The translations under genes were made by a program, and so were the position numbers. The notes beneath the pieces were generated by a model that was given only the letters and a program-made list of their open reading frames with translations, ran no database searches and was not told the DNA's origin. 49,756 nt of DNA. Source: Sulfurimonadaceae bacterium (GTDB taxonomy: Bacteria > Campylobacterota > Campylobacteria > Campylobacterales > Sulfurimonadaceae). How positions within the stretch are numbered: the first letter of the stretch is position 1; each line of letters opens with the position of its first letter. The stretch is taken from contig JAQUHB010000021.1 in NCBI GenBank assembly GCA_028683835.1, positions 1 to 49,756 on the forward strand. The letters are read 5' to 3'. Positions 22,035 to 24,462 of the stretch are shown piece after piece.

Positions 22035-23642
22035 ATGGTTGATGTTTTAGTGATTGGTGCTGGCGGTGCTGGTCTTGTGGCGGCGTTAAGCGCCAAAGAG
22101 TCTGGTGTAAGTGTGAAAGTGCTAACCAAGAGTTATCCGACACGTTCACAGACTTGTATGGCACAAGGGGGGATCAACGCAGCATTGGGTAATGTGAGTG
22201 AAGACAGCGTCAAATCGCATTATGAAAATACCCTCAAATCAGCTCACGGTATAGCTAATAAAAAGATGATAGAAAAGCTTTGCAGCGAGGGGATCGAGGC
22301 TGTAAAATGGCTCGATAGCATTGGTATGCCTTTTAGCAGAACTAAAGAGGGGAACATCGCTCAACGTCGCCTTGGTGGAGCGAGTGCGCCACGAGCTTGT
22401 TACGCTCAGGATTATACGGGACTTAAAATTCTCCATACGCTTTATGATCAGTGTAATGCAAATGATATCGAGATGCTTAGTGAGAGATTTCTGCTAGAAC
22501 TTTTAGTAGAAAATGGTGTTGTCATTGGCGTTGAAGTGCTCAATATCAAAACGGGCGAAGTAGAACAACATCTTGCAAAATGCGTGATTTTGGCTACGGG
22601 CGGATACAGTCGTATTTATGGCAAAAATTCTACAAATACTGTGGGTTCTACGGGAGATGGGATTGCCGCGGCATATCGTGTGGGAGCAAGTTTGAGCGAC
22701 ATGGAGTTTGTGCAGTTTCATCCCACTGGGCTTAAAAACTCATCCATCCTTATAAGTGAAAGTGCTCGAGGTGAAGGGGGATATCTTTTAAACAAAGAGG
22801 GGAAACGTTTTACAGATGAACTCGCTCCTCGTGATAAAGTGAGTCGAGCGATTTATGAAGAGATAGAAAAAAGCGGCGAAGTTACCATCGATATCCGTCA
22901 TTTGGGAAAGGAGTTTATTTCTCATAATCTTCCTCAAGAATGTAAACTTGCAAAGCTGTATGAAAATGTCGATCCTGTTTTTGAACTCGTTCCTATCAAG
23001 CCAGTTGCTCACTATACGATGGGCGGCATTGATGTAGATGAAGCTGCACAGACAAACATTCAAGGACTTTTTGCTGCGGGTGAATGTGCAAATCAAAAGG
23101 TACACGGAGCCAATCGACTTGGTGGAAACTCTTTGCTTGAACTCATTGTTTTTGGGCGAGAAGCTGGAAAGAACGCTGCAAAGTTAGCAAAAGAAAACTT
23201 GCTTACATCCACAGAGCACTTTGCATGTAAGCAATCTGAGCGTGAAACATACGCGTTGGATCTTCTCATAAGGTCTACATGCAAAGTAGATTTTTATAAA
23301 AAACGGGATGAACTCGCAGAGCAGTTTTACAAAAATGTTGGAATAAAACGTGATAAAGTAAAACTCTCAACGGCATTAGAATATTTACAATCACTAAAAG
23401 AAGAGATTCCTTTAATGGGCGTTAGAGACACAAACAAACTCTACAATACTGAGTTAGTTGAATTTTTGGAGTTTAAAAATATAGTAGCATTGGCAGAGAT
23501 GATTGTATCCGGTGCACTACAAAGAGAAGAGAGTCGAGGCTCTCACTATAGAGAAGATATGCCGAGTGAAAATAAAGCCTTTGAAAAAAATACGATTTAT
23601 TATAAAAATGGAGAAAAATTATGTGTGCAATTGATGAGATAA
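22035..23642 (+). CDS. Soluble fumarate reductase/succinate dehydrogenase-type flavoprotein
   Basis: A 535-residue FAD protein of the FrdA/SdhA/TfrA family. It starts directly with the dinucleotide-binding VIGAGGAGLVAA, with no Tat or other signal, so it is cytoplasmic and not MfrA. Family motifs: CMAQGGINAA, RRLGGASAPRACYAQDYTG, QFHPTG, RGEGGYLLN with the EGKRFTDELAPRDKVSRAI catalytic arginine region, HYTMGGI and GANRLGGNSLLE. The position of the histidine that covalently binds FAD in E. coli FrdA/SdhA is Q39 (TRSQT rather than RSHT), so FAD is probably non-covalent, as in thiol:fumarate reductase. A separate Fe-S subunit follows. L-aspartate oxidase is the alternative, disfavoured by the RxxGGASAPRA motif and the partner gene. 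Confidence 0.85.
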   Translation: MVDVLVIGAGGAGLVAALSAKESGVSVKVLTKSYPTRSQTCMAQGGINAALGNVSEDSVKSHYENTLKSAHGIANKKMIEKLCSEGIEAVKWLDSIGMPFSRTKEGNIAQRRLGGASAPRACYAQDYTGLKILHTLYDQCNANDIEMLSERFLLELLVENGVVIGVEVLNIKTGEVEQHLAKCVILATGGYSRIYGKNSTNTVGSTGDGIAAAYRVGASLSDMEFVQFHPTGLKNSSILISESARGEGGYLLNKEGKRFTDELAPRDKVSRAIYEEIEKSGEVTIDIRHLGKEFISHNLPQECKLAKLYENVDPVFELVPIKPVAHYTMGGIDVDEAAQTNIQGLFAAGECANQKVHGANRLGGNSLLELIVFGREAGKNAAKLAKENLLTSTEHFACKQSERETYALDLLIRSTCKVDFYKKRDELAEQFYKNVGIKRDKVKLSTALEYLQSLKEEIPLMGVRDTNKLYNTELVEFLEFKNIVALAEMIVSGALQREESRGSHYREDMPSENKAFEKNTIYYKNGEKLCVQLMR

Positions 23643-23764
23643 AATGTATGAACGATGAAGAAGTTGAAAATCAAGATAATGCCCAAGAAGAAGATGATTG
23701 GGAAGGGTGTTGCGAAGATGTTTTAATGGATGATGAATTCTATGAAAGAGAGTATTGTGACTGA
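23621..23764 (+). CDS. Small acidic cysteine-containing protein between the two subunits
   Basis: A 47-residue ORF, too short for usual gene calling. It starts with ATG at 23621, has GGAG eight bases upstream, overlaps the end of the flavoprotein gene by 22 bases, and its TGA shares one base with the ATG of the Fe-S subunit. This spacing leaves almost no untranslated sequence, as expected for translational coupling. Twenty of 47 residues are Asp or Glu, and there are five cysteines (2, 9, 30, 31, 46), including a CC pair. I recognise no family. It could be an assembly factor, a metal or Fe-S carrier, or a small subunit. Low complexity makes chance less likely than usual but cannot exclude it. 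Confidence 0.6.
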   Translation: MCAIDEIKCMNDEEVENQDNAQEEDDWEGCCEDVLMDDEFYEREYCD

Positions 23765-24462
23765 TGAAAATTGATATCAAAAGAGATGTGCAAACAGTTA
23801 GTTATGAGCTGGCTTGCGAAGATCTTACTTTACTTGAACTTTTGAATCATATCAAAACTGGGATAGACAGTTCTCTATCCTTTTCATCAGGATGTAGAAG
23901 CGGAATTTGTGGAAGCTGTGCTGTGCGTGTCAATGGCAAAGAAGTACTTGCCTGTGCCTACAAACCTCAGGATGGTGATTTTATAGAACCTCTTCGTTAT
24001 GCTTCTGTTTTGCGTGATCTGGTTGTAGATATGGATAAAGTACTTGTCTTTAATAAGATTGCAAAAGCTTGGGGATTACCCACTTCAAAAAATTTGAATG
24101 TAAGCCAAAAAGATGCAGAGATAAATGAGCTTCAAAGCGATTGCATCTTGTGTGGCGCTTGTTATAGTGCTTGCCCTGTGTACACTGTTAACCCTGAATT
24201 TATCGGTCCATTTGCGCTCACGCGGGCTTGGAAATATGTGAGCGACGTGAGAGAAACGGATATAACACAGACGATTTCGGCCGTACAAACAAAAGGAATT
24301 TATGACTGCACACTTTGTAATGAGTGTGTTCCTGTTTGCCCTCAAGGGATCGCTCCAAAACAAGATATTGTGATGTTGAGAAACAAAAGCGGTGTGATGG
24401 GATATATGGACCCAAATTTTGCAAGCTCTTTTGGTGGTTTTGATTCTGGTTTGATATTTTAA
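23764..24462 (+). CDS. Fumarate reductase/succinate dehydrogenase-type iron-sulfur subunit
   Basis: A 232-residue electron-transfer subunit. The N-terminal ferredoxin domain has the [2Fe-2S] ligands C44, C49, C52 and C64. The C-terminal part has C127-x2-C130-x2-C133-x3-C137 and a second C182-x2-C185-x2-C188-x3-C192. In E. coli FrdB the third centre is [3Fe-4S] because the residue at the C185 position is valine; a cysteine there, as in type E archaeal SdhB, predicts a second [4Fe-4S]. No HdrB-like or cytochrome b membrane subunit follows, so the complex may be soluble or use a partner encoded elsewhere. The start overlaps the stop of the acidic ORF by one base. Confidence 0.9.
   Translation: MKIDIKRDVQTVSYELACEDLTLLELLNHIKTGIDSSLSFSSGCRSGICGSCAVRVNGKEVLACAYKPQDGDFIEPLRYASVLRDLVVDMDKVLVFNKIAKAWGLPTSKNLNVSQKDAEINELQSDCILCGACYSACPVYTVNPEFIGPFALTRAWKYVSDVRETDITQTISAVQTKGIYDCTLCNECVPVCPQGIAPKQDIVMLRNKSGVMGYMDPNFASSFGGFDSGLIF

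Follow-up and report, generated by a model that had tools for sequence, protein, structure and literature searches.

A conserved gene for an acidic 47-residue protein between the frdA-like and frdB-like genes of Sulfurimonadaceae

Small extra proteins are known from several relatives of complex II. SdhE (SDHAF2) is a small, folded, soluble protein dedicated to the FrdA/SdhA-type enzyme, in which it promotes covalent FAD attachment (PMC9557727), and SdhF of mycobacterial Sdh2 is a tiny additional subunit anchored in the membrane by a single pass (PMC7447783). In the class E enzymes (SdhABE, MfrABE), a third component with vicinal cysteines, the CCG protein SdhE, stands next to the flavoprotein and iron-sulfur subunits, with a counterpart in the CCG part of TfrB; these CCG proteins reach about 290 residues, carry repeated cluster motifs (e.g., L089) and occur in the same bacteria as the locus described here. 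Finally, a cytoplasmic location and a part in the rTCA cycle have been suggested for a two-subunit FrdAB of Campylobacterota (PMC4674564, citing Sievert et al. 2008), and the passage of that account dealing with the two-subunit enzyme makes no mention of a small gene between frdA and frdB.

The window analysed here, a 49,756-nucleotide stretch from a Sulfurimonadaceae bacterium, encodes a FrdAB that corresponds to this two-subunit enzyme, with a short open reading frame (hereafter the micro-ORF) lying between its two genes on the forward strand (Table 1). The FrdA-like protein scores 580.7 bits against TIGR01812 (cut-off 567.3) and keeps the dicarboxylate-site and catalytic-type motifs QFHPTG, ESARGEGG, HYTMGG and GANRLGGNSLLE. 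Alignment to 6lum_A shows that the FAD-linking His is replaced by Gln (YPTRSQT, against YPTRSHT in 6lum), so that the S-H-T motif of covalent FAD attachment is absent from the window FrdA. The motif was read in 77 relatives from this clade, and every one has the same Gln, whether it carries the micro-ORF or not. Since homologues with noncovalent FAD catalyse fumarate reduction but not succinate oxidation (PMC9557727), the Gln leads us to predict that the window FrdAB works in the fumarate-reducing direction. FrdB contains twelve invariant Cys in its cluster motifs (alignment A2) and reads CTLCNEC where E. coli FrdB has its 3Fe-4S motif (alignment to 1kf6_B), a pattern consistent with one 2Fe-2S and two 4Fe-4S clusters; A2 revealed no spare conserved Cys for a cluster shared with the micro-ORF product. 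There is neither a membrane-anchor gene nor a CCG gene beside the window frdAB, and the lack of the latter places it apart from class E FrdABE. A separate CCG-type FrdABE is encoded on another contig (C46) of the same genome, which also contains ATP-citrate lyase, and the window FrdAB probably serves the rTCA cycle. We also noticed a third FrdA-like protein of 553 residues in this genome (G000, contig C5; L090:1955-3616, reverse strand), with Asn at the FAD-His position; there was no frdB in the 6 kb read around its gene, which adjoins an aldo/keto reductase-like gene and a NifU-like gene.

Table 1. Features at the frdA–frdB junction of the window and related features in other loci.
Feature	Position or locus	Strand	Basis
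frdA-like flavoprotein subunit, 535 aa	22035..23642	+	TIGR01812 above cut-off
GGAG ribosome-binding site, 7 nt 5' of the micro-ORF ATG, within the frdA coding sequence	23610..23613	+	sequence
micro-ORF, 47-aa acidic microprotein	23621..23764	+	ATG 23621 to TGA 23764, read from sequence
22-base overlap of frdA end and micro-ORF start	23621..23642	+	sequence
TGATG, micro-ORF stop overlapping frdB start	23762..23766	+	sequence
frdB-like iron-sulfur subunit, 232 aa	23764..24462	+	TIGR00384 above cut-off
frdA–frdB junction loci with a coiled-coil ORF in family f4	L096, L095, L201, L202, L210		
G311 FrdA with acidic extension	L199:2663-4375	-	

The micro-ORF product, MCAIDEIKCMNDEEVENQDNAQEEDDWEGCCEDVLMDDEFYEREYCD, holds 20 Asp or Glu and 5 Cys among its 47 residues (net charge −18), with a CCED core at residues 30–33 and a C-terminal E-x-E-Y-C-D at residues 42–47. 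The last base of its gene is the A of the frdB ATG. A first-pass annotation of this DNA had listed a 47-codon frame overlapping its neighbours by 22 bases and 1 base, a GGAG site, 20 acidic residues and 5 cysteines, all of which were found again in the sequence. It had also judged such spacing odd for non-coding DNA. An open frame arising by chance would be the simplest objection; in a first-order Markov model of the 121-nt gap the frame stayed open in only 1.3% of draws, a figure that does not yet require a start with its ribosome-binding site, or a stop placed at the FrdB ATG.

Comparison across relatives bears out that judgement and is the decisive evidence. An HMM search recovered micro-ORF orthologues in 30 of the 228 genomes of the window's family, spread over five genera, and within its own genus the gene was present in the window's genome and in five of the seven other members searched. 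Among the frdA–frdB junctions extracted and compared, 31 loci had an acidic ORF in the slot and 19 did not; the 31 belong to one Campylobacterales family and include Sulfuricurvum-labelled records, and wherever the surroundings were read the orthologue stood between FrdA and FrdB homologues. All 31 have a Shine-Dalgarno-like tetramer 3–11 nt upstream, nearly all overlap frdA by 22 or 19 bases, and 24 end at the frdB start. In each of these 24 abutting loci the frdA–frdB gap equals 1 modulo 3, meaning that all indels there keep the frame; the disruptive indels that would speak against a gene were thus seen in none of them. The 24 include L049 (G045) and L074 (G063), in which the ORF has taken up copies of a dispersed repeat. 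The orthologues share the motif CCED...E-x-E-[WY]-C-D, with C31, E32, D33, E42, E44, C46 and D47 invariant in alignment A1 (22 sequences), and across the five genera xCED and ExE..CD vary little or not at all. Acidity is retained in every orthologue. Of the five Cys in the window protein, three are broadly conserved, namely the CC pair and the C-terminal residue.

Selection on the amino acids was assessed from codons outside the frdA overlap, the last seven codons, which lie over the frdB ribosome-binding site, being left out as well. In 11 non-overlapping pairs we counted about 89 synonymous against 91 nonsynonymous differences, giving a pN/pS of 0.18, the selection check across relatives that the first-pass annotation had called for. 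The synonymous excess was significant with no transition bias (P = 6 × 10^-25) and also under extreme transition bias (kappa 20, expected fraction 0.31; P = 1 × 10^-7). Conservation, frame-keeping indels, the ribosome-binding site and the synonymous excess together refute a chance open frame, to which we give a negligible probability, and we conclude that the micro-ORF is a genuine protein-coding gene with selection on its amino acids.

The gene is not uniformly present across the family. A search of named records with FrdB as query returned as the closest matches uncultured Campylobacterales, Helicobacteraceae/Sulfurimonadaceae MAGs and Sulfuricurvum. In most Sulfurimonas-labelled FrdAB, frdA directly adjoins or overlaps frdB and the micro-ORF is lacking; it is also missing from G026 and from one member of the window's own genus (G016). 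Presence and absence require three changes on the FrdB tree, the root of which is not fixed; one gain followed by later losses is one reading of this tree. Several Sulfuricurvum genomes (L047, L135, L145, L155, L175 and others) keep the N-terminus and an EREWCD end and have lost the CCED middle, leaving 26 residues in L047, and CCED is lost in NORP14 too. Since most Sulfurimonas FrdAB lack the micro-ORF and some Sulfuricurvum have it in a partly degenerate form, its product is dispensable and not needed for catalysis.

Retention of both ends without the middle (L047, L145 and L175) is what one would expect if the ORF served mainly to pass ribosomes on from frdA to frdB and the peptide sequence mattered little in itself, and the overlaps at both ends would suit such a translational linker, its N-terminus being shared with the end of frdA and its C-terminus lying over the frdB ribosome-binding site. 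However, the overlap-free middle is under purifying selection, CCED is otherwise nearly invariant, and acidity is conserved in all members. Sulfurimonas, moreover, couples frdA to frdB directly, without the ORF, and the protein persists in six loci (L009, L010, L012, L017, L078, L079) in which it lies 20–136 nt away from frdB. Given above all the conserved middle and this persistence after separation, we consider a pure linker role unlikely. Separately, a programmed frameshift from frdA as the obligatory route to the peptide was considered and rejected, since the ORF of G010 starts in the frdA frame, 45 nt beyond the frdA stop, and the slot ORFs of a second family, f4, lie in varying frames.

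This second Campylobacterales family, represented by one genus, has a small ORF in the same slot matching the model in 15 of 18 genomes. Its product is a charged coiled coil; some end in W-EEE-x-GGNCCED followed by acidic residues and others do not, with about half of the f4 junctions read lacking the CCED end. In G311 (family f18), FrdA itself carries an acidic C-terminal tail ending in DNCCEDID. The frdB of G311 lies about 1.36 kb from frdA, and the interval holds an amino-acid permease-like gene in the opposite orientation. CCED appears in about 0.05–0.15% of composition-preserving shuffles of the slot and tail sequences. Profiles of the f1 and f4 proteins align with an hhalign probability of 23% (pairwise E 0.0009) over 14 columns, and the f4 proteins were not found by an HMM built from f1 alone (E 0.01); A4 included the G311 tail and two f4 proteins, so their A4 scores are circular. 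Common ancestry of the f1 protein, the f4 protein and the G311 tail is therefore offered as suggestive only, convergence on the same slot and motif being the possible alternative. The motif at the C-terminus of G311 FrdA and the GGNCCED end in f4 hint that the small protein may associate physically with FrdA. An apparent fusion of FrdA with the coiled coil in G336 (a 594-aa open frame) was rejected as a long overlapping open frame.

As the first-pass annotation had supposed, the protein has no described family: neither the peptide nor its alignment found a relative in Pfam, NCBIfam or PDB, and at E values up to 1 the Pfam and NCBIfam searches gave just isolated weak matches to unrelated families, none of them SdhE/SDHAF2. 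A literature search, the coverage of which is thin for subscription journals, found no description of a small gene between frdA and frdB. By these sequence comparisons the product belongs to no known family tested, although small extra proteins of complex II relatives are a known context. AlphaFold gave the peptide alone no fold (mean pLDDT 60, pTM 0.11), and modelled the G311 FrdA tail as disordered (pLDDT 35–50) without docking; with almost no alignment depth for the tail, the model of it is weak evidence. FrdB net charge showed no clear difference between lineages with and without the peptide.

We propose that the micro-ORF product is a small third subunit, or an assembly or holding factor, of soluble FrdAB that is co-translated with it, and we give this proposal about an even chance. 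The peptide would be a small, largely unstructured, acidic accessory protein. Encoded on the same mRNA with overlapping stop and start sites, it would be made in step with FrdA and FrdB through coupled translation, and it might bind the C-terminal side of FrdA and/or FrdB, acting there as a third subunit or as an assembly or holding factor during Fe-S cluster insertion into FrdB. Transient metal or redox contacts could run through the CC pair and the C-terminal Cys, and the acidic chain might maintain the solubility of the anchorless FrdAB or serve to dock a partner. This retains part of the first-pass annotation, which had imagined an acidic, Cys-rich small subunit or a factor for assembly or Fe-S delivery: an acidic Cys-bearing protein is indeed encoded with FrdA and FrdB, and the possible roles are narrowed by there being only three broadly conserved Cys and by the loss of CCED in some members.

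Measured against the described systems, the proposed factor would resemble SdhE/SDHAF2 in size, in solubility and in serving a FrdA/SdhA-type enzyme, yet it is predicted to be unstructured, has a partner FrdA with Gln for His and matches no family model. An SdhE-like role in covalent flavinylation is unlikely, considering that FrdAB is anchorless and has Gln at the FAD-linking position. As a possible very small additional subunit in a relative of complex II, it recalls SdhF; in contrast to the membrane-anchored SdhF, it is hydrophilic, with the strong negative charge given above and no anchor gene beside FrdAB. Its position as a third component next to FrdAB and its vicinal CC are shared with the CCG proteins, but it has a CC and one further conserved C in 47 residues, and no Pfam match.

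Other roles for the peptide deserve consideration. An acidic Cys-bearing chain might recruit a soluble electron donor to the anchorless FrdAB, replacing the membrane anchor as an electron-entry or partner-docking subunit. An anchorless enzyme with a predicted fumarate-reducing flavin (Gln for His; PMC9557727) needs a donor, and acidic tails and Cys pairs would fit such a function. Nevertheless, sister FrdAB lacking the ORF have no anchor either in the loci examined, CCED is gone in some lineages, and AlphaFold predicts no cofactor-binding fold, which makes this role improbable in our estimate. The vicinal CC, the C-terminal C, the dispensability of the peptide and its production from the same mRNA would also suit a regulatory or inhibitory peptide of FrdAB that senses redox state or metal, but the conserved location between the subunit genes also agrees with a structural or assembly role, and we regard regulation as very unlikely.

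A more novel but improbable reading is that the disordered acidic peptide is a new complex II component, its vicinal CC pair contributing to electron entry into, or Fe-S loading of, the cytoplasmic, anchorless rTCA fumarate reductase. Such a component would have arisen as its own gene in one family, in coiled-coil form in a second and as a FrdA tail in a third. Independently of that reading, a conserved third gene, lacking a family model, in the operon of the cytoplasmic FrdAB assigned to the rTCA cycle of sulfur-oxidising Campylobacterota would mean that the enzyme should be expressed and assayed as frdA-micro-frdB rather than as frdAB. The peptide also offers a testable handle on the assembly or electron supply of an anchorless fumarate reductase, and lineages with an intact peptide, with a degenerate one and without it constitute a natural experiment.

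Insertions of about 116–136 nt lie between the micro-ORF and frdB in L010, L017, L078 and L079, and that in L010 is flanked by a 26-nt direct repeat (AGCGGGAGTGGTGCGACT...) that recreates the frdB start context. In L049 (G045), L074 (G063) and also L136, a dispersed repeat sits in frame inside the micro-ORF and leaves the frame unbroken; G045 and G063, genomes of the Sulfuricurvum-labelled genus, each contain 6–7 matches to it.
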